Below are positions 33,429 to 53,010 of a stretch of 64,000 nt of DNA, piece after piece. The stretch comes from Bacteroides ilei. GTDB lineage: Bacteria; Bacteroidota; Bacteroidia; Bacteroidales; Bacteroidaceae. The notes beneath the pieces were generated by a model, which was given only the letters and a program-made list of their open reading frames with translations, was not told the origin of the DNA and did no database searches. Each line of letters opens with the position of its first letter. Position 1 is the first letter of the stretch. The stretch lies in the NCBI RefSeq assembly GCF_900128495.1, contig NZ_LT635801.1, positions 693,997-757,996 of the forward strand, read 5' to 3'. The translations under genes were made by a program, and so were the position numbers.

Positions 33429-33540
33429 CCATAATTCATGATTTGTATCAGATACAGGGCGGAGGAATCTGTCCTGTATTTTTTTGTGTCGGTATCTCAT
33501 GTGCCCGCCAGAATCACTTTTTTAATTACCTGCTTTTTCT

Positions 33541-33648
33541 CCGGTAGCCTGTAGCTACTGGAGATATTCGGTCCGGATCTATGGCTGATGACGGAATCCG
33601 GCACGAGCCGTCTTCTGTCATCGGCCGCTCCGGGAGCCTTTATAATCT
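33541..33648 (+). repeat. Structured repeat unit T1
   Basis: Opens with the hairpin CCGGTAGC (33541-33548) / GCTACTGG (33554-33561), then a second stem CCGGAT/ATCCGG and a GC-rich hairpin (GCTC-CGG-GAGC) followed by CTTTATAAT. Nearly identical to T3 (33861-33968) and related to T2. Confidence 0.7.
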
Positions 33649-33701
33649 TCCTCTTATATACGCCAGGGTTCTGGCTGTCCTTTTTATCAGCTTCTTGTCT
33701 T

Positions 33702-33808: not shown

Positions 33809-33860
33809 ATTCCCTGTATCATGTGTGGTTAATGCTCTTTTTTATCCACCTCCTTATCTT

Positions 33861-33968
33861 CCGGTAGCCTGTGGCTACTGGAATCATCTCGGTCCGGATC
33901 TGTGGCTGATGACGGAATCCGGCACGAGCCGTCTTCTGTCATCGGCCGCTCCGGGAGCCTTTATAATT
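33861..33968 (+). repeat. Structured repeat unit T3
   Basis: Near copy of T1: hairpin CCGGTAGC (33861-33868) / GCTACTGG (33874-33881), then CCGGAT/ATCCGG, then the GCTC-CGG-GAGC hairpin and CTTTATAAT. The middle and 3' parts differ from T1 by only about one base. Confidence 0.7.
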
Positions 33969-34148
33969 TCTCCGGTTATACACCATCCGTCACATTGCCC
34001 CGCCGCCACCCTTGTCCCTTTATATTTTCCCTTTTATACAGAAGTTACTGGATGTCGAGTTTTCCTTTCGCCCTTCCTTTGTCACCGCATTGGTTTTATC
34101 AGGTGCAAATTTAGTCAGCCGCGCCTGCTCCTCACGTTTTGAAATGAA

Positions 34149-34323: not shown

Positions 34324-34602
34324 ATGGACAAAAACATTCAGGAGTCTAAAGAGTTCCGCCTTGCCAAGGATTGGGAAATGGCGGTGAACAGTTTTTCTTT
34401 CAATCCGAAACGCTTTGCGGCTGCAATCCCTACAATGCATCCTACGCTGCAACAATGCCTGTACAGACTGATTAGGGAATGTATCAAGGTTATGGCAGAT
34501 GATACTCGTTACTACGATGACCGTAACATGGCTTCGCATGAGGAAGCGAAATGTTTGATGGAATACCTCAATAAACATGGACGTAACATACCGCTTAAAT
34601 AA
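34324..34602 (+). CDS. Conserved small element protein (92 aa)
   Basis: Soluble, helical: MDKNIQESKEFRLAKDWEMA, VNSFSFNPKRFAAAIPTMHP, TLQQCLYRLIRECIKVMADD. No known motif, signal peptide or membrane segment. It is the first gene of a three-gene rightward run (7-bp gap to the next) and carries leader D. Proteins of this type accompany ParB-like genes in Bacteroides elements. Function unknown. Confidence 0.62.
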   Translation: MDKNIQESKEFRLAKDWEMAVNSFSFNPKRFAAAIPTMHPTLQQCLYRLIRECIKVMADDTRYYDDRNMASHEEAKCLMEYLNKHGRNIPLK

Positions 34603-34609
34603 TTGAATT

Positions 34610-34873
34610 ATGAAAACAAAGGAATATCATTTTGACGGCAGCACTTATGTATGTCGTATTGTTCAAGCCAACGATGGTGAAGAACTTGTTATCGCACCTA
34701 CCGCTTTGTTGGATGTCATCCAACCAGGTAGCATTGAAGATGAAAATGAAGGCTTTGCCAATAAGGAAGCCGAATATATTTATGACGAGATTTTTTTCTT
34801 TACTGATGCGGAAACTCTTGCTTTACCCGAGGAGCAGTTTATCGAAGAGCTGAAGAAAGATAACCGTGGGTAG
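34610..34873 (+). CDS. Small acidic conserved protein (87 aa)
   Basis: MKTKEYHFDGSTYVCRIVQA followed by a strongly acidic C-terminal half (EDENEGFANKEAEYIYDEIF). No motif recognised. Its start is 7 bp after the 92-aa gene, so translation is probably coupled. Function unknown. Confidence 0.6.
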   Translation: MKTKEYHFDGSTYVCRIVQANDGEELVIAPTALLDVIQPGSIEDENEGFANKEAEYIYDEIFFFTDAETLALPEEQFIEELKKDNRG

Positions 34874-34913
34874 TTTGAATAATTAGTATGTAATCATTAA
34901 ATACTTTAGCATT

Positions 34914-35237
34914 ATGGATAAAGATTATGTTATGCGTATAGCTGAGACTATCCGCGAACAGCTGGTAACAATGACCGACACAGCAGTCCTTTTGTCATGG
35001 GGTATTCATGAATTTATGGCAACGGTATATAAGGATTTGCCTGGATTGAAGTTCCGTGTCAACGGATGTCTCTTTCAGGGGTATGTTTTGATTTGTCTGA
35101 ACAGTTCAGATTATTATGAGGTGTATCTTCAGAATGAGGAAGGAACTAGGTGCATTAGTGATGAAGTTTGTTTTGATAAACTGGGAGAGGTTATTGACTG
35201 GTATATCGAACTAAATATTGATGAAGGTGTCGTATGA
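34914..35237 (+). CDS. Conserved small protein (107 aa)
   Basis: MDKDYVMRIAETIREQLVTM, then TDTAVLLSWGIHEFMATVYK and GLKFRVNGCLFQGYVLICLN. A mixed alpha/beta soluble protein with no recognised family motif. Last gene of the three-gene run. Codon use is more AT-rich than in the earlier genes, and it borders the very AT-rich RiPP cluster. Function unknown. Confidence 0.58.
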   Translation: MDKDYVMRIAETIREQLVTMTDTAVLLSWGIHEFMATVYKDLPGLKFRVNGCLFQGYVLICLNSSDYYEVYLQNEEGTRCISDEVCFDKLGEVIDWYIELNIDEGVV

Positions 35238-35702
35238 TTTGTTAGACTTAAAATAATTCTTTGATATATTTGTGAGTCATTTAATATTTATATTTTCTAT
35301 AGAATCTTATACGTGAAATATTTATAGAAGTTCATAAATTAAAAGCTTAATAGGTGAATTTAATTAGGATTAAGACATGATGAATGCCTCATTATTGAAT
35401 CTGTAAGAAAATGGATAGTTTATTTTTGATGTCACACTATAAATAAGTTTTTTGATATATCAATTTTCGGGTGACACCGAATTATAGCTTTATAATAGCA
35501 ATTTTCTTCAGATTCTTTGAGGATTTCCCAAAAAAATACTACATTAGGGCCCGAAAGGTTGTTGCTTTATGAAAACATGAATATACTGTAACTTTTATTC
35601 AGAATGCTATCAAACGTTTTTTTACCGGTGCGTAGAAATTCGTAACTTTTATTAAAAAGAGGTGGAAGGGGCACCGACCTAATACCTCACAATACAAATA
35701 GT
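35238..35702. other. AT-rich region upstream of the RiPP cluster
   Basis: 465 bases without a gene. TATATTTG at 35266-35273 matches a -7 box, with TTTG 23 bp upstream. Further down are two direct repeats (listed separately) and CGGTGC/GCACCG arms about 40 bases apart (about 35626 and 35671). This is where the cluster's control elements should lie. Confidence 0.45.
35588..35653 (+). promoter_or_regulatory. Direct repeat GTAACTTTTATT x2 before the RiPP precursor
   Basis: Identical 12-mers at 35588-35599 and 35642-35653, 54 bp apart. Each contains TAACTTTT, one base from a Bacteroidetes -7 box, so they could be tandem promoters or regulator sites. The second is 50 bp before the precursor start codon. 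Confidence 0.4.
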
Positions 35703-35912
35703 ATGAAAATAGCTATTTTTTCAAGCGCAGCATTGTTGGACGAATCTTCTCTCCAGCAATTGAAGGGTGGTATTAATGACAAACTGGAGCATCTGGAATT
35801 GTCTAATTCTAACTCAAATTCGAATAGCAATTCGAATTCTAACAGTAGCATTGCTTCAATGCAAATGGCAAGTGGATGCAACTGTGGTTGTAGTTGTGGC
35901 TGTAACTGTTAA
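35703..35912 (+). CDS. RiPP precursor peptide, double-glycine leader, palindromic Cys core (69 aa)
   Basis: Leader MKIAIFSSAALLDESSLQQL ends with a KGG site (Gly22-Gly23), the C39-peptidase cleavage signal. After it comes an acidic/basic spacer (INDKLEHLEL), seven Ser-Asn repeats (residues 34-47), a short linker and a core ending SGCNCGCSCGCNC with six alternating Cys (59, 61, 63, 65, 67, 69). The last 11 residues read the same in both directions. The next genes are a radical SAM/SPASM enzyme and a C39 ABC exporter, so the Cys are probably modified (thioether links are typical) and the peptide exported. Cleavage would release a 46-residue product. The serine codons vary, so the repeat is not a simple DNA slippage product. 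Confidence 0.85.
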   Translation: MKIAIFSSAALLDESSLQQLKGGINDKLEHLELSNSNSNSNSNSNSNSSIASMQMASGCNCGCSCGCNC

Positions 35913-35977
35913 AGTGCAAAATGTTTTTATGTATGGGTTTATTCTTAAGCCCATACATAAAATAAATTAACAAAAGG

Positions 35978-37258
35978 ATGAAAAAGTCTAGTAGATATAA
36001 TCGATATATAATTGTTGATGATGAACTTTATGTTTATAATTTGTTGTCAAGAGCATTAATATGTCTTGGAAATATAGAGCTTGGTGATAAGCTTAGGAAT
36101 AATTCTTTTTCTGATTTTGATGCGGTATCTTTGGACGTTTTGGAGAAGAATAAGTTTATCTGTGATGATTCTATAGACGAATATTTACAAATTGTACGTC
36201 TGCAAAGAATTATTAAATATGGAAATAGAAATGCTCGTCTAACAATTCTTCCAACGTTGAATTGTAATTTTAGATGTTGGTATTGTTATGAAGAACATAC
36301 GGCAAAGAACCTATCAGAAAAAGATTGCGAGATTTTACTGAAATATGCAGAAAATCTTTTGAATAATAATCACTTAAATAGTCTAACTTTGGATTGGTTT
36401 GGGGGTGAGCCAATGCTTAAGTTTAATGATATAATTGTTCCTCTTTCATTAGAAATTAAACAGTTATGTGAGAAGAAAGGAGTTGTATTCTATAACATGA
36501 TAACAACAAATGGCGCTCTCATTTCAGAAAAACAAATTGCAGACATGGATCGTATTGACCTTAAAAAGTTTCAGATTACGTTAGATGGTGGTAAGGAGTT
36601 TCATAATAAAACAAGATTTTCAAAGAAATTTCCTGATTCTTACGATTGCATTGTAAATAATATATCCATGTTAATTAATTGTTTGTCTAATCTTGATTTA
36701 ACATTAAGGATTAATTGTACGCCGGAAAATATTGAATCAATTATGTCAATAATCGATTCTTTTTCTATGGAAGTAAGAGGTAAAATACATGTCAATTTTC
36801 AACCGATTTGGCAAGAAATAGATACCTTAAAAAAACTTTCTAAACGAGTAACGGAAATTACAGCCCATTTTTATGAAGCAGGTTTTTCTGTTCCATCATT
36901 TACTATACTCCCAACAACCCCCAATATATGTTATGTTGAAAATATGTTACATTATACAATAATACCAGGATTGGAAGTATATAAATGTACCGCAAGGGAT
37001 TTTAAGAAAGATTCAGTAAATTATATTGGGAATATATCAGATGATGGGGCTTTTATTTCGAATGATAATATTTTAAGATATTATTGTAATTCTTTTTTTG
37101 AAAATGAAAAGTGTAGAGAATGTGAAGTCCTTCCAGTATGCAGAGGAAACTGTATTCAGAAATGTGTTGAAAAAAATAGGTTGGATTGTCAAAAGGAAAA
37201 TTTAATAAAAGGTGTTGATTCAATTGTAATTGCTATGATTAAACGTGCGAAGTCATAA
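35978..37258 (+). CDS. Radical SAM/SPASM peptide maturase (426 aa)
   Basis: TLNCNFRCWYCYEEH carries the radical SAM CX3CX2C motif (C96, C100, C103), which holds the 4Fe-4S cluster that cleaves SAM. The GGEPML motif, which binds SAM, follows. The C-terminus has a SPASM domain (CNSFFENEKCRECEVLPVCR, then GNCIQKC), which holds auxiliary clusters and is typical of enzymes that modify ribosomal peptides. The first 85 residues (IIVDDELYVYNLLSRALICL) probably bind the leader peptide. It starts 65 bp after the precursor and is AT-rich like it. Expected reaction: cross-linking Cys residues of the precursor core; the exact bond cannot be told. Confidence 0.9.
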   Translation: MKKSSRYNRYIIVDDELYVYNLLSRALICLGNIELGDKLRNNSFSDFDAVSLDVLEKNKFICDDSIDEYLQIVRLQRIIKYGNRNARLTILPTLNCNFRCWYCYEEHTAKNLSEKDCEILLKYAENLLNNNHLNSLTLDWFGGEPMLKFNDIIVPLSLEIKQLCEKKGVVFYNMITTNGALISEKQIADMDRIDLKKFQITLDGGKEFHNKTRFSKKFPDSYDCIVNNISMLINCLSNLDLTLRINCTPENIESIMSIIDSFSMEVRGKIHVNFQPIWQEIDTLKKLSKRVTEITAHFYEAGFSVPSFTILPTTPNICYVENMLHYTIIPGLEVYKCTARDFKKDSVNYIGNISDDGAFISNDNILRYYCNSFFENEKCRECEVLPVCRGNCIQKCVEKNRLDCQKENLIKGVDSIVIAMIKRAKS

Positions 37259-37308
37259 CAATGTCAGGAGATAATCTATTCTTTCATTACCATTATTTAT
37301 AATTTGTT

Positions 37309-39528
37309 ATGCTCCGTGTTATTCATAGACTTTTTGGAAAGTGTTTTCCTATTATTTTGCAGAAAGATAGCATGCAGTGTGGTGTCGCATGTTTGAGTAT
37401 GATTAGTTCATATTACGGTCGTTCATATTCGTTAGATTTTCTGTCAAAAAAATGCTTTCCTACAAAGGAAGGTGTTTCTATGCTTTCTATATCTAAAGCA
37501 GCAAAACAAATCGGATTGGATAATATAACGGGATTGATAAGCCTAGAAGAGTTGATGCGTGCTCCATTACCATGTATTTTGCATTGGTCCCAAAATCATT
37601 TTGTTGTATTATATAAAGTTAAAAAATGTAATACATTTTATTTGTCTGACCCGGCAAAAGGTAAAGTAAAACTTTCCTTAAATGAGTTTTGTGCTCATTG
37701 GCTTAATCAAACAGGAAAAAACGAGAATAAAGGTGTTGCTATGTTTTTTGAGCCTGAGCCCGAGTTTAAAATGCATATGGAAACTAATGTGTCAGAAGTC
37801 CATTCTTTGAGGTTTCTAAACAAGTATGTTAAAGAATATAAAAAATACTTGTTTCAGATTCTTTTAGGATTAATATTGGGCTGTATTCTACAATTAATAA
37901 TGCCTTTTTTGACTCAAGCAATTGTAGACATTGGAATAAAACATAATGATGTTAGTTTTATTTGGCTTGTATTAATTGGTGAGTTGATAATTGTAATTGG
38001 CAAGACCATAACTGATTTTATTAGAAGATGGTTAGTCTTGTACATCTCAATGCGAATTAATATTTCTTTGGTAAGTGATTTCTTTATTAAATTACTTAAA
38101 CTTCCAATGGCTTTTTTTGATACCAAACTAATGGGAGATTTATTGCAACGTATAAATGATCACTCTCGTGTACAATCTTTTTTGACAAATCAAGTTCTTG
38201 GAGTTATCTTTACATTTCTCAGCTTTATTGTTTTTGGTGTTGTTCTGTTGATTTACAATCAAACAATTTTTTATATTTTTACTATTGGTAGCGTAATATA
38301 CGGTTTATGGATAACAAAGTTTTTGCACAAACGAAAAATAATAGATTATGAATTGTTTGAGCAACAAGCCAAAAACCAGAATAAGACGTATCAATTGATT
38401 ACTTCCATGCAAGAAATAAAGTTGCAAGATTGTGAACAGCGTCGTAGGTGGGAATGGGAAGATGTGCAGGCTGATATATTTTCAGTGCAAATGAAATCAT
38501 TGAAGTTACAGCAAACGCAAGAGGCAGGATCTATTTTTATCAATGAAGTAAAAAATATAACTATTACCGTACTTGCAGCTACTGCTGTAATAAACGGTCA
38601 AATGACTCTTGGTGCAATGCTTGCAGTACAGTATATAATAGGGCAACTAAATTCCCCAGTAGAACAATTTATGTCTTTCATTTATTCTCTTCAGGATGTT
38701 AAGATTTCTCTTGAACGTATCAATGAAATACATGAAGGGAATGAGGAAGAAACAAGTGATAATAAAAGAAAAGGTTTCGATTCTGAGAAATCAATAAGAA
38801 TAAGTAATATAGATTTTAAGTATGATCAATATGCGATGAAGAAAACTCTGGAAGGAGTTTCTTTTGAAATTCCCGCAGGGAAGGTTACGGCAATTGTTGG
38901 GGCATCTGGAAGTGGTAAAACTACTTTAATAAAGCTCATGCTTGGCTATTATAAGGTTATGTCAGGTAGTATTTTAATCGCTGGTCACGATATAAATGAA
39001 TATAATCTTAAATGGTGGAGGCGCCATTGTGGTGTTGTATTACAGGATGGAGTGATTTTCTCCGAATCTATTGCTAGAAATATAGCAATAGGTGATGGTG
39101 ATATAGATTGGGAGCAATTGGAATGGGCTGCTAAAATAGCCAATATACATGATTATGTAATAAGTTTGCCTTTAAAATATGAGACACTAATTGGACGAGA
39201 TGGGATTGGTTTAAGTCAAGGGCAAAAGCAAAGAATTTTAATCGCGCGTGCAGTATATAAAAATCCAGATTTTATCTTTCTCGATGAAGCCACAAATGCT
39301 CTTGATGCAAAAAATGAAAAATTAATAGTGGAGCGACTTTCAGATTTTTATAGAGGAAAAACAGTAATAGTTGTGGCACATCGTCTTTCAACAGTTAAAA
39401 ATGCTGATCAAATAATAGTTCTTGATGAGGGTAAGGTTGTAGAAATAGGTACTCATACGTCTTTAATTAATATCAGAGGTGTCTATTATAATCTAATTAA
39501 AAATCAATTGGAATTAGGTAGTAACTAA
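37309..39528 (+). CDS. Peptidase-containing ABC exporter (C39 domain), 739 aa
   Basis: Residues 15-140 are a C39 double-glycine peptidase: DSMQCGVACLSM with catalytic C24, HWSQNHFVVLY with H97, and LSDPAKG with D114. A six-helix ABC membrane domain follows (about 170-450), then an ATPase: GASGSGKTTLI (Walker A, about 533), LSQGQKQRILIARAVY (signature) and FIFLDEATNALDA (Walker B). All key residues are present. It should cut the precursor after Gly23 and export the product. Follows the maturase by 50 bp and belongs to the same rightward cluster. Confidence 0.95.
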   Translation: MLRVIHRLFGKCFPIILQKDSMQCGVACLSMISSYYGRSYSLDFLSKKCFPTKEGVSMLSISKAAKQIGLDNITGLISLEELMRAPLPCILHWSQNHFVVLYKVKKCNTFYLSDPAKGKVKLSLNEFCAHWLNQTGKNENKGVAMFFEPEPEFKMHMETNVSEVHSLRFLNKYVKEYKKYLFQILLGLILGCILQLIMPFLTQAIVDIGIKHNDVSFIWLVLIGELIIVIGKTITDFIRRWLVLYISMRINISLVSDFFIKLLKLPMAFFDTKLMGDLLQRINDHSRVQSFLTNQVLGVIFTFLSFIVFGVVLLIYNQTIFYIFTIGSVIYGLWITKFLHKRKIIDYELFEQQAKNQNKTYQLITSMQEIKLQDCEQRRRWEWEDVQADIFSVQMKSLKLQQTQEAGSIFINEVKNITITVLAATAVINGQMTLGAMLAVQYIIGQLNSPVEQFMSFIYSLQDVKISLERINEIHEGNEEETSDNKRKGFDSEKSIRISNIDFKYDQYAMKKTLEGVSFEIPAGKVTAIVGASGSGKTTLIKLMLGYYKVMSGSILIAGHDINEYNLKWWRRHCGVVLQDGVIFSESIARNIAIGDGDIDWEQLEWAAKIANIHDYVISLPLKYETLIGRDGIGLSQGQKQRILIARAVYKNPDFIFLDEATNALDAKNEKLIVERLSDFYRGKTVIVVAHRLSTVKNADQIIVLDEGKVVEIGTHTSLINIRGVYYNLIKNQLELGSN

Positions 39529-39541
39529 AATTGCAATAAAT

Positions 39542-41665
39542 ATGAAGAATTATTCTAAAATGAGTTTAAAGGTCTTTTTTTCTATATTTTGCTTTGTATG
39601 CTTCCCCTCATTGAGAGGAATAAGTCAAACACTCGATAGTATATCAACTATTGACTTGAAGGAAGTGGTAGTGAAAGCTCAGATGCATCGAACAGATGCA
39701 TCCTCTTCTACTTTTACTCCTACAATAAATCAAAAAGCTTCCGCACAAAATGCAATAGACCTTTTGAAACAACTTGCTATTCCTCAAATCAACATAAACA
39801 TGATGGACAATACAGTCACTACGCCAAGTGGACAGAGTGTAGCCATATACATCAACTATATTCTCGCTTCAGCAGAAGAAATGGAAGGTATATCCACTTC
39901 AGACGTACGGCGAGTGGAATATCTTGACTTTCCATCGGATCCTCGCTTCCAAGGAAATGAGCATGTGGTTAATTTTATTGTACAGAAATATGAATACGGT
40001 GGATATACAAAGGCGACATTGAATGAAAACTTTCTGATAGGCAAACTTTCAAGCCGGGCTTCGATTTATTCTAAGTTTGTGTATAAACGTATGACCTACG
40101 ATTTGTATGTGGGGGCTTCCAATCACAATATCAATCATTCGGGCAATTCCGTTTCGGGAGTTTACAGTCTGGAGAATGAAGCGGGAGAAGCCTATCAGAT
40201 AACTCGAAACGAAACATTAGAGGGTGCCCATCTCAAGTATAACCAGTATCCGGTTACGTTCCGGGCCGTCTATGACACAGATAAAATGCAAATAGCCAAT
40301 ACCGTCGGCTTCAACTTTGACCAGACTCCATTGTCGGAAACAAAGGGTATGTTGTCGTTTGTTCCTCAGCAAAACACGGATTATTCCTATTATAAGAATG
40401 AACCATCCACTAGCCGTTATTTTGTCTGGTCGGGTAATTATTATTTCATCCTTCCTCGGGATTTTCATCTTAGCGTATCGCCTGGCATGAATTATGGGCA
40501 TACGAATTATTCGTATATTTATCAGACCTCATTGCCTGGCAATTCCAGTATCGCGAACATTTCAAGAGAAAATGTTTGGCAGTTTCGTGGAAGCGCTACT
40601 TTATTCAAAAAGTTAGCTGACAAGCAGAGTGCTTTCTTCCGGACATGGTTTGGATCGACATCCAATGATGTGAGCTATTCCGGTACTTCGCCCTACGATA
40701 ATGAATTCTTAGATATGTACGCCGGTGCCGCACTGGGTTATAATTTCTCAAACGACAAATGGAACGTCCGGGCCGATGCCGCCTTCCAATGGGAAAAGAA
40801 CCAGATTAATGATCAGTCTGTGGCGGAAGTCTATCCGCTACTGAACTTGTCTGCAGGTTTCTCTCCCTCACAAAAGCACTCGTTCCGTACTTTCTTCCAT
40901 TTCGGGGCAAACTATCCAGGGGCCAGTGAAAAGACGCCAAATGTTCTTCAGCAGAACGAACTGATGTACTATACGGGAAATCCCACCATCGGACTTTCCC
41001 GACAGGTGACCTTCAACCTGTCCTACAACTGGATACCGACGAGTGCATTCTCTGCTTCGGCATTTATGCAGTACTTCGGCGAATATGACCTGTATGTGCC
41101 GGTTTACCAGCCTTATCAGGAAGGTAAGGCTTTGCTGCGTACGTTTGAAACGGATGGAGCATACAACCGGACACAGATAGGTTTGTCGTTTAATTACAGG
41201 TTACTCAATGGAAAACTGCAACTGGCGGCCTCTCCTTCGGTCTCCTTCTATCGCATGACAGGGCTTTTCGACATTTCGCAGTCCCCGTTCTACTGTAATG
41301 CCTCTGCCACTTATTATTTAGGTAACTTCTATTTTCAGGCAGCCTATCAGACCCGAAGCCTTACGGTACAGGGCAATCGGGGCGTAATTTATAAAGACCG
41401 TGATTTCTATCAGGTTTTAGCCGGATGGAGTCATTCCAACTGGAACATTCGTGTTAGCGGAATGAATCTGTTCCGGAAGGATTGGCTGTGTGCCACGAAT
41501 CTATTGTCTACACCTCTTTATTCCGAAACCCAGCTTGTGGAGGGCAACAATTTCCATCAGCGCCTAAACTTGTCGGTTACCTATACATTCGGATATGGCA
41601 AAAAGGTTAAACGAGGGAACGAGGTCGGCGAACAATCAGGAGCAGCATCAGCAATTATGAAATAA
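39542..41665 (+). CDS. Outer-membrane beta-barrel protein, TonB-receptor-like (707 aa)
   Basis: N-terminal signal (VFFSIFCFVCFPSLRGISQ), then DSISTIDLKEVVVKAQMHRT and a plug-like region (NAIDLLKQLAIPQINI, GQSVAIYINYILASAEEMEG, DVRRVEYLDFPSDPRF), and a long region of alternating aromatic/polar strands to the end, typical of a large barrel. The carboxypeptidase-like domain usual in Bacteroidetes TonB receptors is absent. It is 13 bp after the exporter, so it probably serves the peptide: outer-membrane exit, re-uptake or self-protection. From about 39900 codons are markedly GC-richer than in the other cluster genes, hinting at separate origin. Confidence 0.72.
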   Translation: MKNYSKMSLKVFFSIFCFVCFPSLRGISQTLDSISTIDLKEVVVKAQMHRTDASSSTFTPTINQKASAQNAIDLLKQLAIPQININMMDNTVTTPSGQSVAIYINYILASAEEMEGISTSDVRRVEYLDFPSDPRFQGNEHVVNFIVQKYEYGGYTKATLNENFLIGKLSSRASIYSKFVYKRMTYDLYVGASNHNINHSGNSVSGVYSLENEAGEAYQITRNETLEGAHLKYNQYPVTFRAVYDTDKMQIANTVGFNFDQTPLSETKGMLSFVPQQNTDYSYYKNEPSTSRYFVWSGNYYFILPRDFHLSVSPGMNYGHTNYSYIYQTSLPGNSSIANISRENVWQFRGSATLFKKLADKQSAFFRTWFGSTSNDVSYSGTSPYDNEFLDMYAGAALGYNFSNDKWNVRADAAFQWEKNQINDQSVAEVYPLLNLSAGFSPSQKHSFRTFFHFGANYPGASEKTPNVLQQNELMYYTGNPTIGLSRQVTFNLSYNWIPTSAFSASAFMQYFGEYDLYVPVYQPYQEGKALLRTFETDGAYNRTQIGLSFNYRLLNGKLQLAASPSVSFYRMTGLFDISQSPFYCNASATYYLGNFYFQAAYQTRSLTVQGNRGVIYKDRDFYQVLAGWSHSNWNIRVSGMNLFRKDWLCATNLLSTPLYSETQLVEGNNFHQRLNLSVTYTFGYGKKVKRGNEVGEQSGAASAIMK

Positions 41666-41759
41666 AATGCATATTAGTAATGACAAAATATTAAAGTTAT
41701 ATTTGTCTGGTTGGTGATATGTATATCTTAATCACGCAAAAAATATAGAATAAAATTAA

Positions 41760-41957
41760 ATGAATAATGAGTTCTCGAAAAATATTGATTCACGTTCAGA
41801 AAAGGTTCGTAATCTTTTGGGGGAAAAACCTCCTTTCTTTGTAAGGTGGGGTACATCAATAGTCGTAATTATGTTTTTGATTCTATTGTTGATACTTTTA
41901 GGTTTGCAGTATCCTTATTCAAATGGAGAAAGCATATTGCAACATTTACTTCGTTGA
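41760..41957 (+). CDS. Minimal HlyD-like membrane protein (65 aa)
   Basis: Resembles only the first 60 residues of the HlyD-type membrane-fusion proteins that partner C39 exporters in Bacteroides: IDSRSEKVRNLLGEKPPFFV, RWG, then one membrane helix (31-49) and LQYPYSNG. In full-length proteins (about 430 aa) a long periplasmic part would follow; here the frame stops after ESILQHLLR. Either a truncated remnant or a real mini-protein. It lies 94 bp after the barrel gene, just before the terminator of the cluster. If no full HlyD exists elsewhere, the export route must be unusual. Confidence 0.55.
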   Translation: MNNEFSKNIDSRSEKVRNLLGEKPPFFVRWGTSIVVIMFLILLLILLGLQYPYSNGESILQHLLR

Positions 41958-42489: not shown

Positions 42490-43746
42490 ATGGAAGAAAG
42501 TAATTTTTATGATTTAAGGAAACAAGTTGTCCAGCAACTGCGTGAAAGACATTATGCACCTTTAACTATTTGTGCATTTAAGAGTAGTTATAATAAACTG
42601 GAATGTTATATGCTGGAAAATAGAATTGAAATCTATTCTGCTCGTGTAGGGGAAGATTTTTTGAAAACTCGCCATAAAGGTGTTGCATACGCCCAACTGT
42701 CTGATTTTGAGAAGAACATGGTTAGACATATAAGAATAATGAATGAAGTTCTGCATACAGGAATTATCATTGGAAAACCAACACCGCGAAGTCCCATGTT
42801 TGAATTCAAAGGAGATTTAGGCATACAATTCAATGAATTTATTTGTCATGAAAGGAGAATTAAAAGTCCTCTAACAGTAAGTAAATATCACTTGTATTTG
42901 AGAGATTTGTTTAATTTTCTAAAAGAGAACAACAAGCTCGTTAAAGACTTTGACATTCCCAGTTGCTTATTATTCTTACGTGATTTGAAGCGACAGAAAC
43001 GTCCTTGGCCTCATGTTGTATCTTCTGTAAGGGCTTTTATTAGATACTCATGTGAACGTAACTTATTAGGAGATTGTAATTTTTTTCGTTGGGATAAAAT
43101 ATTATGTCTCCATCGTCCAAGAAACCCTCAATTGCCATCGTATTATAGTAAGGAGGAAATAGAGAAATTATTGGTCACAATAGACAGGTCTTCTCCGAAA
43201 GGCAAACGTGACTATGCAATGATTTTACTTGCAGCACGTTATGGGCTCCGCGCTTCAGATATAGTAGGAGTTACATACGCCAACTTTGAATGGGAACTCA
43301 ATCGTTTGTCCCTTGTCCAGACAAAAACAGGAAAACCTGTTTCATTTCCATTATCAGAAGAAATTGGAAGTGCCATTATTGATTATATCAAATTTGGACG
43401 ACCAGAAATTGACAGTCCATATGTCTTTTTGGAACACATGGCTCCATACCAAAGAATTTCCCCCCAGGCATTACCAGGAATTGTTTCTGAATGGATGCTT
43501 TCTGCCCAAATAGATATCTCAACACGTAAACACGGTCCTCATTCTTTACGTCATAGTCTTGCTATTAACTTGTTTGAGAATGGTGAAACTCCAAGCGTTA
43601 TATCTGAAATACTTGGACATTCTAATTTATCAACCACTTTAAATTATGTGAAAGTTGATTTAAAGCATCTAAGACAATGTGCACTTGAAGTTCCTCAAAT
43701 TCCTGAATTTTTTTATTTAGATATATATGAGAAAGAGAACTGGTAA
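42490..43746 (+). CDS. RIT tyrosine recombinase A (418 aa)
   Basis: First of three phage-integrase-type recombinases. The N-terminal 190 residues are the SAM-like DNA-binding arm and core-binding region. The catalytic domain shows YGLRASD (first Arg, about 255), HGPHSLRHS (HxxR, about 347-352), LGHSN (His) and NYVKVD (Tyr, about 387): all residues present. It overlaps the next gene by 20 bp. In RIT elements and Tn554-like transposons the three recombinases act together at the ends. The source of the small accessory gene some relatives have is not seen here. Confidence 0.92.
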   Translation: MEESNFYDLRKQVVQQLRERHYAPLTICAFKSSYNKLECYMLENRIEIYSARVGEDFLKTRHKGVAYAQLSDFEKNMVRHIRIMNEVLHTGIIIGKPTPRSPMFEFKGDLGIQFNEFICHERRIKSPLTVSKYHLYLRDLFNFLKENNKLVKDFDIPSCLLFLRDLKRQKRPWPHVVSSVRAFIRYSCERNLLGDCNFFRWDKILCLHRPRNPQLPSYYSKEEIEKLLVTIDRSSPKGKRDYAMILLAARYGLRASDIVGVTYANFEWELNRLSLVQTKTGKPVSFPLSEEIGSAIIDYIKFGRPEIDSPYVFLEHMAPYQRISPQALPGIVSEWMLSAQIDISTRKHGPHSLRHSLAINLFENGETPSVISEILGHSNLSTTLNYVKVDLKHLRQCALEVPQIPEFFYLDIYEKENW

Positions 43747-44716
43747 ATTATGCAGCGTATTCTCAGGGTTAATTACCCAATATGTAGAATATAAACAAAA
43801 CATAGGTTGTAAAACAACCGTAATGGAATTTATGTTGAAGCGATTTGACAAGTTTGCTAATGACAGAAACGAGAAAGCCCTTGGTATTTCCAAAGACTTG
43901 GCAGATGCCTGGTGCTGTAAATTTTCTGGAGAGTCCGAAGAAAACCGCTATTATAGGATCGTCATTCTTCGAGGATTCTCTTCTTTCCTGCAAATAATTG
44001 GATATAATTCATATATTCCAATATTACCAAAACATCAATCAAATTTTACCCCCTATATTTATACATCTGATGAAATAGAGAAGATTTTCAAGGAATGTGA
44101 TAGGATTAACTCCTATTATCACTTAGTCAATTCAGCCCGATTTTCCATGCCATGCCTAATCCGTTTACTATATGGGACAGGAATCCGTGTAGGTGAAGCT
44201 CTAAAATTGAAACACAGTGATATCGATTTCAAAAATGAATGCTTATTGCTTAGAGAATGTAAAAATGGGAAAGACAGGTATGTGCCTCTTTCTCCTTCCT
44301 TGGTACTAATGTGCCATGATTATGTAGCCCAAAAACAGAAATTTGGGTTTAGTATTAATCCAGAAAGCTATTTCTTTGTAAAATGTAATGATACTTCCAT
44401 CTCACCAAGGACTGTTTCAAATCATTTCAATCATATATTAGAACGTGCTGGTATTATGCGAAACGAAAATAGAAAAGGTCCTCGTCTACACGATCTCCGA
44501 CATACATTCTGTGTAAATTCATTTGTGCAATTATGCAAATCAGGGAAGGATATACATAATGTGATGCTAATACTAATGACATATATGGGACATCAATCCA
44601 TTAAAGCCACAAATAAGTATGTCAGAATAGTAGAGGCTATGTTTCCTGAAATTGTAGAACAGGTGGATATGGCTCATAATCATATTTTCCCTAATATGAA
44701 TGAAATGATTGATTAG
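43727..44716 (+). CDS. RIT tyrosine recombinase B (329 aa)
   Basis: Second recombinase: YGTGIRVGEALKLKHSDID (first Arg), DRYVPLSP (beta-hairpin Lys region), LHDLRHTFCVNSF (HxxR), YMGHQSIKATNKYVRI (His and Tyr). Complete catalytic set. Begins inside the end of gene A (20-bp overlap) and overlaps gene C by 8 bp, which implies translational coupling and a fixed stoichiometry. Confidence 0.92.
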   Translation: MRKRTGKLCSVFSGLITQYVEYKQNIGCKTTVMEFMLKRFDKFANDRNEKALGISKDLADAWCCKFSGESEENRYYRIVILRGFSSFLQIIGYNSYIPILPKHQSNFTPYIYTSDEIEKIFKECDRINSYYHLVNSARFSMPCLIRLLYGTGIRVGEALKLKHSDIDFKNECLLLRECKNGKDRYVPLSPSLVLMCHDYVAQKQKFGFSINPESYFFVKCNDTSISPRTVSNHFNHILERAGIMRNENRKGPRLHDLRHTFCVNSFVQLCKSGKDIHNVMLILMTYMGHQSIKATNKYVRIVEAMFPEIVEQVDMAHNHIFPNMNEMID

Positions 44717-45761
44717 TTATGCGTTAAGACTTGGAATTATGACAGATTTTGGAAAATATCTCACAGATTATTTAAACCGTTATCTCACAATGGAATGTGG
44801 TTGTTCCTATCAAACGGTAAAACAATATAGTGTAACATTTATGCTTTTTATACAATACATGTATAAAATTGAACTAATAGCTCCGGAAAAACTATGCCTT
44901 AAAGAATTTACAAAAGAAAGAGTTTTGGGATTTTTACATTGGCTGGAAGATACAAGAAAATGTTCAATATCAACAAGGAACAACCGTTTATGCGCCTTAC
45001 GGTCATTTTTTAAATTTCTTCAATATCGTGAGGTTAAGGGTATGGCTTATTGGCAAGCTATATTGAGTATCAAACAGAAAAAGACACCTTTTAAGGAAAT
45101 GTCTTATCTGACTACGGAAGGAGTAAGGGTATTGCTTGAACAACCGGATTTATCAACTCGCAAAGGGCGTAGAGACTTTGTTCTTATGGGGCTATTATAC
45201 GACAGCGGTGCCAGGGTTCAAGAAATCATAAACCTCACCCCGGAAAATATAAGATTAGGAGAAACTACGACTGTAAAATTACATGGGAAAGGTAATAAAA
45301 TCAGAGTAGTTCCTCTCTCTACCAACCAAGTGAAAAATTTAAGGTTGTATATGGACGAAAACAATCTTTTTGCAGCACAATATAGATGTCATCCATTATT
45401 CCCTAATCCCAAAGGAGAAAGGTTGACAAGAATGGCTGTATTAGATATTGTGAAAAGACATGCAGAAAATGCAAGGAAACAATATTCAGAGTTGATACCC
45501 AATAATATATCTTGTCATACTTTTCGACATTCAAAAGCTATGCATATGCTGGAAGCAGGTATAAATCTCGTTTATATTCGTGACTTTCTTGGACATACTT
45601 CTACAACAACAACGGAAATATATGCCAGGGCAAGTGAAAAAATAAAAGAACAGGCATTGAAGAAACTGACTTCTGGTATTATTCAAGAAAGCAAAACTAC
45701 ATGGCAAAAAGACGGAGATTTAATGGAATTCCTAAAAGCTTTACAAGTAAAATATAAATAG
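44709..45761 (+). CDS. RIT tyrosine recombinase C (350 aa)
   Basis: Third recombinase: LYDSGARVQEIINLTPENI (first Arg), GKGNKIRVVPLST (Lys), CHTFRHSKAMHMLEAG (HxxR), FLGHTSTTTTEIYARASEKI (His and Tyr). XerD/IntI-like layout, with a full catalytic set. Starts 8 bp before the end of gene B. The C-terminal tail is followed by the right end of the element about 110 bp downstream. Confidence 0.92.
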   Translation: MISYALRLGIMTDFGKYLTDYLNRYLTMECGCSYQTVKQYSVTFMLFIQYMYKIELIAPEKLCLKEFTKERVLGFLHWLEDTRKCSISTRNNRLCALRSFFKFLQYREVKGMAYWQAILSIKQKKTPFKEMSYLTTEGVRVLLEQPDLSTRKGRRDFVLMGLLYDSGARVQEIINLTPENIRLGETTTVKLHGKGNKIRVVPLSTNQVKNLRLYMDENNLFAAQYRCHPLFPNPKGERLTRMAVLDIVKRHAENARKQYSELIPNNISCHTFRHSKAMHMLEAGINLVYIRDFLGHTSTTTTEIYARASEKIKEQALKKLTSGIIQESKTTWQKDGDLMEFLKALQVKYK

Positions 45762-45902: not shown

Positions 45903-46255
45903 ACCTGGTATGCCAGACAGGCTAAAAGCACTGAATCATGGCCAAATTTACTGAATAAACGGCAAAGTTTCATCATGTCCGCTCTTAAGATAGAATCTCC
46001 CTGAGCTTTTGTGATGTCGTTGGTAAATCTCTCTCCGGGAAGGACCTTATGTCCCCATCCAACATAAGGCCAGTGTCTTTTTTCCCCATGCCAACCTTCA
46101 TAGAATTTTATACAACTTATAGCCCTTTCCAGCGGTGGAAGACTGTATATGGACAGTTGGGTGGATGCCGGTTTTGCTCTGTACCTTTCCTGCCCATATA
46201 CTGTCGTCATAGCCGCTATCATCAGCATGAAGATAAATATTTTTCTATGCTTCAT
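45903..46255 (-). pseudogene. Phage-type lysozyme gene, 5' part (broken by the RIT element)
   Basis: Signal peptide MKHRKIFIFMLMIAAMTTVY, then FYEGW with probable catalytic E53 and VGWGH (66-69), the GH24 lysozyme core, followed by LLACLAYQVG, where the RIT element cuts in; the fused frame adds YVSNFIM and stops. The rest of the gene is at 42069-42249. It overlaps the stop of the coupling-protein gene (ATGA), so it was the last gene of the tra operon. Loss of the C-terminal third probably inactivates it; other hydrolases in the window may compensate. Confidence 0.85.
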
Positions 46256-48438
46256 TTTGCTCCGCGTTTGTTTAGTACATCCTTAATCATTTCCTTCACA
46301 TCCAGTCCTACCTGTACAAAGTTTTTGTACAGGATGCGTTCCCTTTCATCCCTTGAATTGAATGTATAAAATTTGGGCAGTGGTACATATCCGGCTTCTT
46401 CTTTCTTTATTTCTTCCATATCGAAATCCGTTTTACAGAAGAACTTTGTGGTCTTGAATTCTTCTGATTCCTGAATGTTCATTGTTCCTCCGTTTCCTAC
46501 CTTTGTTTTCACAAAGTCACGGGCTGTCTGTCCGCATATCCATCCGGTAGGCATGTCGGATATCTTTGATGCAGGTACCAGGCTGTCCATATTCTCGTTC
46601 AGGTTGATACTTGTCTTGTCGCGGTCTATGGTTACGCCTTTTTTCAGCTGAACCACTTTTCCGAAGATGTCATTCGACAGCCATTCCAGTGTTTCTTTCG
46701 AGCGAGCAGAACCGCTTACCACGTTACCCACTGTAGTGATAATTTTCTGCATACCAACCTTGCCGTAGTCGGCTTCAAGCTGCGGCAGTTCTTGGAATCC
46801 CAGCGTCACGCTTACCTTGTTGCTTCGTGCTGTTCCTATGAGCCGGTCTATCTTGTGGAAATATAGTGTCGGCAGCTCGTCCACGATGATGCTCACTGGG
46901 ATATTCTTGCCCTGTCCGGTATTCACACGGGTTACAAGGCGGTTCAGGATAAGGGCGTTCAGCGCACCTATGATACTTTCCATTTCCGGATCGTTGGCTA
47001 TGAGCAGGTAGCTTGGGTCCTTCGGGTCACTTACTTTCAGGTCGAAATCGTCCCCGTCCTTGTGGAATATCCAATATGATTCCTTGGTAGCCAGACGGGA
47101 GGTATATACTCTCAAGGTACCGATCATACCTTCCAGCTGCTCCATGGCCTTGTTCTTGAAAGCCGTTTGGAACGGGCCAAGAAGGGGAGCCACCTCATTG
47201 TCTGTTTCCAATACCTCGAAGATGGTCTGGTAGCTCTCGTTCAGGAATGACAAGATGTGTGGCATATCCGAGTATTTCCCCAGCCAGTAAGCAGGTTCTA
47301 CAATATTGCCGTCTTTCTTGTCACGTACCACGCCGGTCGGCTTCCAGAATTTTGTTTCAGGATCCTGACGTTTCTCAGCATACAGCATGTTACCGTCCTT
47401 GTCGTAGGGTTCTCTCTCATAGTTGACAAAAAAGTAAATGCAAGCTGCCAGAAAGTTCACAGCGGAGGTCTGGAAGAATTGGTCGCTTCCGCCACCTCCT
47501 TCCTTCTTTCCTTTCTGCAATGATTCAAGCAAGGTCTCGGCAGTTTCGCTGGCGGCGGCCAGATTGTTTATATACTTTGCCTGTATGGGGTTCACACGAC
47601 GGCTGTATTCTACATCCACAAAGTTGATGATGTTGAACTTGCAGCCTTTTGGCAGCTTGCCGAGTTTCTGGTTCTTCTTGTAATGATAATACAGTTTTGT
47701 CGCCAAGGTAGGGAACTTATAATCGTACACGACCATAGCGAATCCCTTGGCAGAGTGCTGTCTGATAAATGGTTCGATGATTGAAAATGTCTTACCACTA
47801 CCCGGTGTACCTACTACCCATGTCCCGCGAAAGGGGTTGCTTATGCTTACCCAGCCCTTGCGGAATTTACCTTTATAGTAGTAGCGCATGGGGATATTTA
47901 CACTGTATTTGTTTTCCTGTATTTCCTCGCTCTGCTCAAAACTCTCGTTCTCGAAGTTGAACCTGTCTTTCATCAGCCCGTCCTTCAGGAACTTTGAAAT
48001 GTTGTCAAGGGCAATATGCGCCAGTATGACACCGGCAAGTGAGGTTGCCATGTAGAGCCAAATGTTCAGCGGCAAGGTGTACAGCCGCATGCCCATTTTA
48101 TATCCGAACAGCCATACGGACAGTACAATCAGCCCTACACCGCCCACAAGCGGATACAGCACCATTCGCCGGGCATCAAATTCCAGCTGTTTTTTGTTGC
48201 GGGTGCCGATACAGGTGATACAGATGAGCAGGAAGGTTGCTACCTTGCTGTACACCAGGTGTCCGTCATTATATATCATCCAGCGCTTGATACGTCCGTG
48301 TATGTCACACAATATTCCGCTCCAACTGTCAAGCAGGGCCGGCTCCAGTGCATATTCAAAGAATTCCATAAGCACGGATATATAGATTACAGCCCGGAAT
48401 ATTCTGTAGAATCCCTGCAACTCTTTACTTTCTTCCAT
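46252..48438 (-). CDS. Type IV coupling protein, VirD4/TraG family (728 aa)
   Basis: The ATPase that feeds DNA to the secretion channel. The N-terminal 150 residues have several membrane helices (VATFLLICITCIG, LYPLVGGVGLIVLSVWLFGY, WLYMATSLAGVILAHIAL). Walker A GTPGSGKTF is at about 209-217, followed by VVYDYKFPTLATKLYYHYKK; Walker B/VDELPTLYFH and the GFQELPQLEADYG region come later. This is the MobC/TraG-like type of Bacteroides elements, which takes its DNA from a relaxase; no relaxase gene is in the window. It is the second to last gene of the tra operon. Confidence 0.92.
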   Translation of the reverse strand: MEESKELQGFYRIFRAVIYISVLMEFFEYALEPALLDSWSGILCDIHGRIKRWMIYNDGHLVYSKVATFLLICITCIGTRNKKQLEFDARRMVLYPLVGGVGLIVLSVWLFGYKMGMRLYTLPLNIWLYMATSLAGVILAHIALDNISKFLKDGLMKDRFNFENESFEQSEEIQENKYSVNIPMRYYYKGKFRKGWVSISNPFRGTWVVGTPGSGKTFSIIEPFIRQHSAKGFAMVVYDYKFPTLATKLYYHYKKNQKLGKLPKGCKFNIINFVDVEYSRRVNPIQAKYINNLAAASETAETLLESLQKGKKEGGGGSDQFFQTSAVNFLAACIYFFVNYEREPYDKDGNMLYAEKRQDPETKFWKPTGVVRDKKDGNIVEPAYWLGKYSDMPHILSFLNESYQTIFEVLETDNEVAPLLGPFQTAFKNKAMEQLEGMIGTLRVYTSRLATKESYWIFHKDGDDFDLKVSDPKDPSYLLIANDPEMESIIGALNALILNRLVTRVNTGQGKNIPVSIIVDELPTLYFHKIDRLIGTARSNKVSVTLGFQELPQLEADYGKVGMQKIITTVGNVVSGSARSKETLEWLSNDIFGKVVQLKKGVTIDRDKTSINLNENMDSLVPASKISDMPTGWICGQTARDFVKTKVGNGGTMNIQESEEFKTTKFFCKTDFDMEEIKKEEAGYVPLPKFYTFNSRDERERILYKNFVQVGLDVKEMIKDVLNKRGAK

Positions 48439-51358: not shown

Positions 51359-52510
51359 TTATTGTTTGTTATTACCATTTACCAGATAGACAAAGGTTCC
51401 GTATTTCAGCTTCACCTTGTTTTTTTTGATGGCCTTGCCGATAGCGTTGCTCGTTTTCTGGTAGGCATTCTGCATTGCTTGCATTCCCCATTGGGCCAGA
51501 CTGTTCCCGGCCCCCGTTGTGTTCATGCTGATGTTGCCTGTTACGGCACCACTTGCAACATCTTTGCTCGTTTCCCGGAACTGGCTGTTGGGTACATACA
51601 GTCCTTCCAGTCCATCCGTGTCATACAGTGACAGACTTACTTTCACCAGTTCGTCATCTACAAGTATGCTGTTGATGCTGCCTTTTACCCGCCCGGAAGA
51701 GAATCCGCTCATGGTGGCATACAGGTAAGAGCCGCGTTTGACTACATGTTCGTCAATTTCCACATCATCAAGTAGTCTTAGACGTACACGTGAACCGTCA
51801 ACAGCCTTGATATTTTCATCAATGATGGCCTGTATGAGCTTTGGTTCACGGGAGTTTTTAGCCAGTGTATTGAAGTAGTCGGAGGTTGTCTTTACTTTCT
51901 TCACCACTTCACTGGCTTTTGCTGTTTCAGCAGGGGCTTTCACCGAACGGCTGTCTTCTTCAATTTTTCCCGCAGAATGGATTGTGTCCATGGGTATGGC
52001 TGTGGCATCAGAATCTCCAGCTATAGGTTCTATTGCTTTCTGTCCTTTTAACCTCGCTTCTGCCAAAGCCTTCTCCAGTTCCGCAAGGGCTTCTTTTTCT
52101 CTCTCTTTGGTATCGGTCTCTTGTGTGGCCATAGCCTTGTCTTTCTCCTGCTGGTCGAGCAGGGCGATGTCATTTTGTGTGTATTGCGATTCATAAGCTT
52201 GTTTGTTTTCGTCCGGTTCATCACGGTCGATGTTATCTACTGCGGAATAGTCTTGTATTTTACCCCATGATTTTGCCATGTTCTCATATTTGCTTCCGAT
52301 TCCGTCTCCGTCTTTGATTTGGGCGTCCGGAAGCTCAGGATTCAGAAATTCCGTCGTCTGCAGCGTTTTATCCGGAATCTCTGCTTTTTCTGCATGGAAC
52401 AGGTCGAAGATAAAGTACGATCCGCCCATCAGCGGAATGTAGAGGATTGCCGGTAACATAAATTTGGGCTGCCTCCAGTTGATTTGCTTGATTTTTTCCT
52501 TTATGTTCAT
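51359..52510 (-). CDS. traM: Conjugal transfer protein TraM (VirB10-like), about 383 aa
   Basis: From MNIKEKIKQINWRQPKFMLP: short cytoplasmic N-terminus, one membrane helix (LPAILYIPLMGGSYFIFDLF), a long charged and probably coiled periplasmic region (KDKAMATQETDTKEREKEAL), and a C-terminal beta domain (SRVRLRLLDDVEIDEHVVKR, GSYLYATMSGFSSGRVKG), as in Bacteroides TraM, the bridge between both membranes. Start chosen at 52510; ATG at 52519, overlapping the upstream stop, is also possible. An open frame extends to 52609 but lies inside the upstream gene. Confidence 0.85.
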   Translation of the reverse strand: MNIKEKIKQINWRQPKFMLPAILYIPLMGGSYFIFDLFHAEKAEIPDKTLQTTEFLNPELPDAQIKDGDGIGSKYENMAKSWGKIQDYSAVDNIDRDEPDENKQAYESQYTQNDIALLDQQEKDKAMATQETDTKEREKEALAELEKALAEARLKGQKAIEPIAGDSDATAIPMDTIHSAGKIEEDSRSVKAPAETAKASEVVKKVKTTSDYFNTLAKNSREPKLIQAIIDENIKAVDGSRVRLRLLDDVEIDEHVVKRGSYLYATMSGFSSGRVKGSINSILVDDELVKVSLSLYDTDGLEGLYVPNSQFRETSKDVASGAVTGNISMNTTGAGNSLAQWGMQAMQNAYQKTSNAIGKAIKKNKVKLKYGTFVYLVNGNNKQ

Positions 52511-52518
52511 TGCTCTCA

Positions 52519-53010
52519 TTAATTGATTTGTACATATTTCCCTTCTAGGGCACACGTCTTTAATATTTCTGCATTGTCTTTTCCAAAGGCGATAAGGATA
52601 CTTCCACATCCGGGCGAATCACCGCGTGTACCGTCCGGACGGTAGAATCTGATGCGGTGGCGTAGAAACTTCATGGCTATTGCTTTCTTGAAGATGATGT
52701 CCTGGAACATCTTGGAATCACATCGGTTATACAGCAATGCGATGCCGTTTCCATGTTCTGCCAGCCGGCGCACAAACTGCTCTATAAGTGGACGTGAGTA
52801 AGGTGGATTGAGCCATACGCGGCCTTCCCATTTTTGAGACAATCCGTCAATACGTTTGTCATACATGACTGTAGCTGTCGGCCACAGCGGAGCGACCGGT
52901 GCACAGGGGTCAAGGTCGAATTTTCCCAATGCCTCCAGTACATCTTTGGGAGTATACCATTCATCTGATGCCTTTTCAGTCCTTTCAAATCTTGTATTCA
53001 TACGTGTCAT
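52519..53010 (-). CDS. Dam-like adenine methyltransferase, phage type (163 aa)
   Basis: KASDEWYTPKDVLEALGKFD and DLDPCA, followed by GRVWLNPPYSRPLIEQF (NPPY catalytic motif), then GIALLYNRCDSKMFQD: the pattern of the phage Dam family (N6-adenine). There is no cognate nuclease. Like the methylase between TraM and TraN, it sits inside the tra operon, here between the TraL-like gene and TraM. The start of TraM overlaps or abuts its stop codon, so translation is linked. Likely protects DNA in the recipient. Confidence 0.88.
   Translation of the reverse strand: MTRMNTRFERTEKASDEWYTPKDVLEALGKFDLDPCAPVAPLWPTATVMYDKRIDGLSQKWEGRVWLNPPYSRPLIEQFVRRLAEHGNGIALLYNRCDSKMFQDIIFKKAIAMKFLRHRIRFYRPDGTRGDSPGCGSILIAFGKDNAEILKTCALEGKYVQIN

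Follow-up and report, generated by a model that had tools for sequence, protein, structure and literature searches.

A gene cluster in a 64,000-nucleotide stretch of the Bacteroides ilei genome (the window) appears, on balance, to be a transferable RiPP cluster based on Cys-Asn thioether chemistry, as judged from the sequences of the cluster and of related loci. The cluster comprises five genes (Table 1), in support of the RiPP-type assignment made in an initial annotation of this DNA. The encoded peptide is very probably modified by the radical SAM (rSAM) enzyme and exported. This iron-sulphur enzyme probably staples the Asn- and Cys-containing peptide, and the likeliest guess for the putative role of the product is interbacterial competition. 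The Ser-Asn repeat of the precursor, the outer-membrane barrel, and the nature of the last open reading frame were absent from the initial annotation.

Table 1. Features of the cluster and of its surroundings in the window.
Feature	Position	Strand	Description
Inverted repeat GGTGC...GGCACC	35627-35675	+	Possible regulatory hairpin upstream from the precursor; both arms in a stretch conserved in the diverged locus L014
Precursor gene	35703-35912	+	69 aa; predicted leader M1-G23 ending LKGG; predicted core I24-C69
Alternating Ser-Asn strand S34-N47, (S-N)7	35802-35843	+	Seven Asn at i,i+2 (N35-N47); putative acceptor strand
Alternating Cys strand C59-C69, CNCGCSCGCNC	35877-35909	+	Putative thiol donors
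Radical SAM/SPASM peptide maturase	35978-37258	+	426 aa
C39 peptidase-containing ABC exporter	37309-39528	+	739 aa; C24, H97, and D114 present
Predicted outer-membrane beta-barrel	39542-41665	+	707 aa; profile relatives in 42/50 loci
Membrane-fusion-protein stub	41760-41957	+	65 aa; RSEKVR motif, one hydrophobic segment, PYSNGESILQHLL tail
Conjugation coupling protein	46252-48438	-	PF02534, PF12696
TraM of the host conjugative element	51359-52609	-	PF12508
TraG conjugation ATPase	59937-62660	-	PF19044

The precursor contains two alternating strands

The initial annotation described a palindromic motif with six alternating Cys at the end of the precursor. This was confirmed, the last 11 residues forming a palindrome with six Cys in strict alternation. 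The S-N strand is separated from C59 by 11 residues, the last Asn being located 12 residues before the first Cys. The sequence NxxC is present once in the window precursor (N60-C63). The seven S-N units are encoded with four Ser codons (TCT, TCA, TCG, and AGC) and an unchanged amino acid sequence, and all units were retained in none of 200,000 simulations introducing an equal number of random base changes. The ancestor in these simulations was the consensus unit, which makes them strict since one unit is three bases away from it. These results indicate that the S-N alternation has been kept at the protein level, and not by DNA slippage.

Comparison of the precursor with the NCBIfam and Pfam models, metallothionein models included, identified no family at E ≤ 0.1, in line with the initial annotation, in which the core was not recognised from known radical SAM peptides. 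The model TIGR04149 (GG-Bacteroidales rSAM-modified RiPP precursor, cut-off of 25) was thus unmatched at E ≤ 0.1, and its cut-off was also missed by precursors of the related loci L015 (13.3 bits) and L012 (15.5 bits). NCBIfam searches with the precursors of ten relatives only returned sub-threshold matches, such as FibroRumin for L063 (15.9 versus 45 bits). In 393 genomes of the order Bacteroidales, the sole match to the precursor was the window's own copy. An Rfam scan of positions 35100 to 36000 returned just two matches, both sub-threshold and implausible.

The Cys pattern recurs in part. Among 59 hand-picked precursors, the longest alternating run contained six Cys in the window only, four in L063, three in 20 precursors, and two in 10, the remaining 27 having none. 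Shorter runs are therefore found in relatives, but the run of six is not. Likewise, palindromy holds for both runs of more than three Cys (the window and L063, CSCHCSC) but is not general, since it was detected in 4 of the 26 alternating runs of at least three Cys. Alternation of at least three Cys required at least seven changes on a partly unresolved 40-row tree, and therefore seems not to be a single inherited trait. The L063 precursor (L063:4544-4753) displays four alternating Ser followed by a palindromic four-Cys strand (SVSVSVSGDTCSCHCSC). In the diverged homologue L014, the leader is retained and the S-N strand comprises five Asn; the maturase there is 78% identical to that of the window over residues 252-425. 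L014 has no core because the leader and S-N strand run in frame into the C-terminal half of the maturase (L014:5872-6525), a fusion resulting either from a deletion or from an assembly error.

The maturase falls below the cut-offs of named families

The assignment of the second gene to radical SAM/SPASM enzymes with intact cluster motifs held on closer inspection. The protein harbors the CX3CX2C motif (C96, C100, and C103) and the seven-Cys SPASM pattern (C318, C337, C379, C382, C388, C392, and C404), all of these Cys being invariant across 33 aligned sequences, window included, and it scored 49.4 bits with PF04055 (cut-off of 29.5). It was below the cut-off of every one of the best 25 NCBIfam models listed. 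The best scores were obtained with TIGR04463 rSAM_vs_C_rich (173.6 bits versus 525), the TIGR04334 Clo7bot maturase (145.9 versus 600), and CefB (138.5 versus 600); scores for the NF047865 PapB family (87.2 versus 340) and the TIGR03974 SCIFF maturase (58.5 versus 425) were also below the cut-offs. The cluster appears to work like a ranthipeptide or sactipeptide cluster and, by curated cut-offs, belongs to none of the named maturase and precursor families examined.

The AlphaFold2 model of the maturase had a mean pLDDT of 88.4. Its top three Foldseek matches were entries titled 'Thioether Bond Formation in the Biosynthesis of Sactipeptides' (5why and 5wgg), the latter corresponding to CteB (PMC10352776). 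Z scores obtained with VIA-align were 24.7 for ChlB, 23.6 for CteB, 23.3 for anSME, 23.2 for TigE, and 19.4 for SkfB. Use of the fold for other chemistry counts against a thioether assignment: TigE is a close structural match but catalyzes another reaction, and TvgB, likened here by its description, makes cyclopropylglycine (PMC9062424).

Apart from L013 and L014, the aligned relatives of the maturase were 24 to 36% identical to it. Matches were detected in 9 of 60 related genomes at E ≤ 1e-30 and in 8 of the 393 genomes of the order at E ≤ 1e-50, the window's own genome being counted in both cases. The viral contigs searched contained no relative, and eight records of a plasmid collection encoded distant maturases, with at most 34% identity. 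The window maturase grouped with L015 and L039 in a 35-row tree (support of 92/85) and was unresolved in the 40-row tree, the nearest rows by path being L059, L039, L060, and L015; L036 was absent from both trees. One genome of the same genus (G825) encodes five maturases of this family (L098-L102), with different Asn/Cys-rich precursors.

Asn is positionally coupled to Cys in related precursors

Related maturases (24-36% identity) adjoin Asn/Cys-rich precursors. Our set consisted of 58 precursors hand-picked beside such maturases, in addition to the window's own. A GG-like motif and the presence of Cys served as filters for the script-generated candidate lists, so that the set is enriched for Cys and not selected by Asn position. 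Several loci gave no precursor (e.g. L023, L024, L027, L029, L031, L032, L054, L059, L066, and L080), and the leader was cut at the first GG, which is wrong in a few rows.

In the 13 precursors of four loci (L015, L036, L039, and L060), 25 of the 26 C-x-C modules read N-x-N-x4-C-x-C, the remaining six positions of the motif being variable. Precursors within one locus are paralogues, and the 25 modules therefore represent four loci rather than 25 independent cases. Three of these loci rank with the nearest neighbours of the window in the tree. Coupling was tested in 33 other loci, several of which share genomes. The first precursor of each locus was considered (186 Cys, 324 residue/offset tests, 600 shuffles), near duplicates (L021, L064, and L099), the window, and the four loci with N-x-N modules being omitted. 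Asn was over-represented at positions -3 (60 versus 25.2 expected, z = 7.8), +2 (46 versus 21.8, z = 6.1), and -5 (41 versus 21.2, z = 5.1) relative to Cys. Only these three offsets, and no other residue, exceeded the 99% family-wise shuffle limit (4.48), Asn at -5 only just passing since the highest shuffle value was 5.03.

The initial annotation had proposed a choice between very tight thioether rings and a metal-binding peptide. This choice is unsupported: the coupling of Asn to Cys in relatives is better accounted for by a third option, in which Cys would be cross-linked to a separate alternating Asn strand, and very tight rings are not the best explanation. We therefore lean towards the presence of Cys-Asn thioethers in the matured peptide. 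Asn is not the partner everywhere, since L012 (12 Cys, 4 Asn) and L079 (11 Cys, 1 Asn) display alternating Cys in repeated C-x-C-x-C with little Asn, and since the L063 precursor has alternating Ser/Val (S-V-S-V-S-V-S-GDT-C-S-C-H-C-S-C).

The likelihoods that we attach to the alternatives overlap and do not sum to one. The foremost of them, itself unlikely, is a sactipeptide-like hairpin in which Cys would be linked to the alpha carbons of other residues, such as Ser in the SN strand or turn residues. The match of the maturase model to the sactisynthase SkfB, the layout of the L063 precursor, and the description of sactipeptides as hairpins with varied acceptors (PMC8326336) are consistent with this alternative, but Asn, and not Ser, was coupled to Cys in the 33 related loci. 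In addition, donor Cys are mostly N-terminal in the sactipeptides described in the same report, with exceptions implied (PMC8326336), whereas the Cys of the window are in the last 11 residues. The precursor thus departs from the usual sactipeptide layout, in which donor Cys are located in the N-terminal part of the hairpin.

A metal-binding peptide with free thiols comes next and is likewise improbable; the C-x-C array would bind a soft metal, for example as a secreted metallophore, and the rSAM enzyme would act elsewhere or make a single link. C-x-C arrays resemble metallothionein motifs, and the Asn-poor precursors of L012 and L079 would fit this role. The coupling of Asn to Cys and the lack of a match between the precursor and Pfam or NCBIfam models argue against it, and no metal gene was recognised in the cluster itself, the scan extending upstream only to the last of three small open reading frames (34324-35237). 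Still less probable is the formation of only one or two local NxxC thioethers, as in NxxcA, with the SN repeat acting as a flexible spacer. N60-C63 has the spacing most enriched in the 33 loci, but the SN strand was maintained at the protein level against codon drift, and four related loci share a fixed motif of alternating Asn followed by alternating Cys.

A nested Cys-Asn hairpin as a candidate structure

For Cys-Asn cross-linking, the leader (up to LKGG) would present the core to the rSAM/SPASM enzyme, which would join Cys thiols to Asn by thioether bonds. Attachment would involve the beta carbon by analogy with NxxcA, in which Cys23 is joined to Asn20 at C-beta (PMC8326336). In the likeliest topology, the alternating Asn strand would face the alternating Cys strand in a hairpin with nested pairs N(47-2k)-C(59+2k), k = 0-5. 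Such a ladder (N47-C59, N45-C61 ... N37-C69) is possible because N(i-2) and C(j+2) share a hairpin face, with a period of two on both strands. Applied to the N-x-N-x4-C-x-C relatives, the same pairing rule would give two rungs around a four-residue turn. Precedents include freyrasin, which contains six C-beta Cys-Asp links (PMC8326336), and PapB, whose links can be in-line or nested, with 0-6 residues tolerated in between (PMC9413430). The 11-residue turn of the window is longer than this range and than the four-residue turns of the relatives. Since the last Asn is 12, rather than 5, residues before the first Cys and NxxC is present only once, a single local cross-link could be formed instead of six. 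We regard the nested six-rung ladder as tentative.

A complete scheme, to which we give somewhat less credence than to the ladder itself, would be a thioether 'zipper', a hairpin in which a single rSAM enzyme places six nested staples between Cys and Asn at i+2 spacing, all on the same face of the two strands. The zipper could be lengthened by the addition of S-N and C-x units, would have two-rung counterparts in relatives (N-x-N-x4-C-x-C), and would be exported by a C39 transporter whose fusion protein has been reduced to one membrane segment. Should the ladder be correct, it would represent a covalent hairpin that is extendable by repeats and composed of Asn and Cys alone. Such a hairpin would be a new scaffold for stable peptides and would allow the counting and nesting of cross-links by a single rSAM enzyme to be tested cleanly. 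The N-x-N-x4-C-x-C modules would offer a minimal two-rung test substrate.

Export functions

The C39 exporter with C24, H97, and D114 was correctly recognised in the initial annotation. The protein also contains Q18 and the Walker A, signature, and Walker B motifs, and scored well above the Pfam cut-offs for PF03412 (110 bits versus 22), PF00664 (97.1 versus 28), and PF00005 (110.8 versus 25). We infer that the C39 domain cuts after GG and that the product is exported with the assistance of the fusion-protein stub and the outer-membrane barrel.

The barrel has no Pfam or NCBIfam match of its own; two of its profile relatives carry CarboxypepD_reg domains. Its structure model was of low confidence (mean pLDDT of 47.8). 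Among 50 related loci, duplicates and cut contigs included, barrels were detected in 42 with a loose profile, whose members are 16-19% identical to the window barrel, and C39 genes in 35. The stretches examined at L015, L039, L059, and L060 contained no barrel.

The 65-aa open reading frame is a membrane-fusion-protein stub of a kind that recurs after C39 exporters. In alignments, it corresponds to the N-terminal end of HlyD-type fusion proteins (436-439 aa), of which it retains the N-terminal tail and membrane segment but not the periplasmic domain, a short tail bringing the protein to its full 65 aa. S-E-K-x-R and one hydrophobic segment are kept, and a P-Y-x-N-G tail is present in 4 of 8 aligned stubs. 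The stub profile also detects full-length fusion proteins; it matched 102 of the 295 genomes of the order and 21 of the 61 genomes of the genus, the window's own included. The 58 best-match loci comprised 15 stubs of less than 120 aa, 21 mid-size proteins, and 22 larger ones. Thirteen of the 15 stubs were located beside a C39 gene in the 2-3 kb examined; the other two include the window's own, which is separated from the exporter gene by the barrel. Six of the 15 belong to the sequences that make up the profile, and seven of the nine others end with P-Y-P-[YH]-x-x-G-E-[ST]-[IF]. Such a conserved tail points to a functional small protein and not to a decaying one.

Stubs of about 47-89 aa, most of them directly after C39 exporters and many sharing a P-Y-P-Y-x-x-G-E-S-I tail, were observed in the window and at L020, L052, L056, L057, L079, L083, L100, L149, L175-L180, L182, and L190. 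L083, on a 278-kb plasmid record of Parabacteroides distasonis, is a related precursor-rSAM-barrel-C39-stub cluster near a two-component system. The stub may bear on the open question of how export proceeds in Bacteroidales clusters with a PCAT and an OMP in which no fusion protein was detected, as reported for BGC6-9 (PMC10352776). A missed stub of this type could account for the apparent absence in BGC6-9.

The cluster is located on a mobile element

Location on a conjugative element, as initially proposed, was borne out by the adjoining conjugation genes and by a block at least 99.1% identical in another genome. The coupling protein, TraG ATPase, and TraM genes, characteristic of integrative conjugative elements, are all downstream from the cluster. 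G000:C1:592391-788719 (about 196 kb) aligned with Bacteroides ndongoniae NZ_FNVV01000014 in three long segments (99.1%, 99.99%, and 99.96% identity), a repeat of about 1.6 kb interrupting one site of the shared block. The backbones of the two genomes are different, with 66-78% identity over parts of two 4-kb test pieces. The cluster thus appears to be carried by a mobile element common to both genomes, with indirect evidence for a putative self-transfer. Three overlapping tandem tyrosine recombinase genes (42490-45761), which we take to resemble a recombinase-in-trio element, are located just downstream from the cluster, and an inverted duplication of about 145 bases, 89% identical (33517-33658 and 33837-33980), is found upstream.

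Over 13.3 kb around the cluster, the B. ndongoniae copy (L013) differs by one base in the length of a T-run, which breaks the rSAM frame there. This broken frame and the missing core of L014 raise the possibility of a decayed or silent cluster on the mobile element, which we consider the least probable of the alternatives, as the five genes of the window are open and the rSAM and C39 motifs are intact.

Comparison with known systems

The Asn-strand/Cys-strand layout matched no family model searched, although the proposed chemistry resembles that of known peptides. In open-licence PMC text, we found no paper on the core, the N-x-N-x4-C-x-C motif, or the stub, nor on TIGR04463 or Clo7bot. As in the TIGR04463, Clo7bot, and CefB systems, the maturase is associated with a Cys-rich precursor, but the four annotated Clo7bot precursors of L084 have a different leader, without GG, and are unlike that of the window. 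SCIFF and its maturase CteB share with the window system the top Foldseek matches across the enzyme and six Cys in a short peptide, CteB being the best PDB sequence match over profile positions 81-263 only. Alternating Cys are not known from SCIFF peptides.

Bacteroidales rSAM RiPP clusters with a PCAT and an OMP also combine GG precursors, an rSAM enzyme, a C39 exporter, and an OMP, several of them without a detected fusion protein; most of the nine clusters described carry YcaO, LanC, or LanM, unlike the window, a comparison made by gene content (PMC10352776). The Asp-Cys repeat system resembles the window in its repeated Cys at short spacing, rSAM maturase, and nearby recombinase; its description sets it apart by Asp-Cys repeats in place of an Asn strand and a Cys strand (PMC9062424), although the two systems may overlap. 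Freyrasin and PapB ranthipeptides have multiple thioethers, in-line and nested, and the PapB model matched the maturase, albeit below its cut-off; the acceptors are Asp located downstream from Cys (C-x3-D), whereas Asn is upstream in the window (PMC9413430). NxxcA/NxxcB, a ranthipeptide system of Streptococcus orisratti, combines an rSAM/SPASM maturase, likened here by its description, with Asn upstream from Cys, and its N-x-x-C spacing is the strongest in the related precursors. Unlike NxxcA, which contains one link, the window precursor displays six alternating Cys and seven alternating Asn in a separate strand (PMC8326336).
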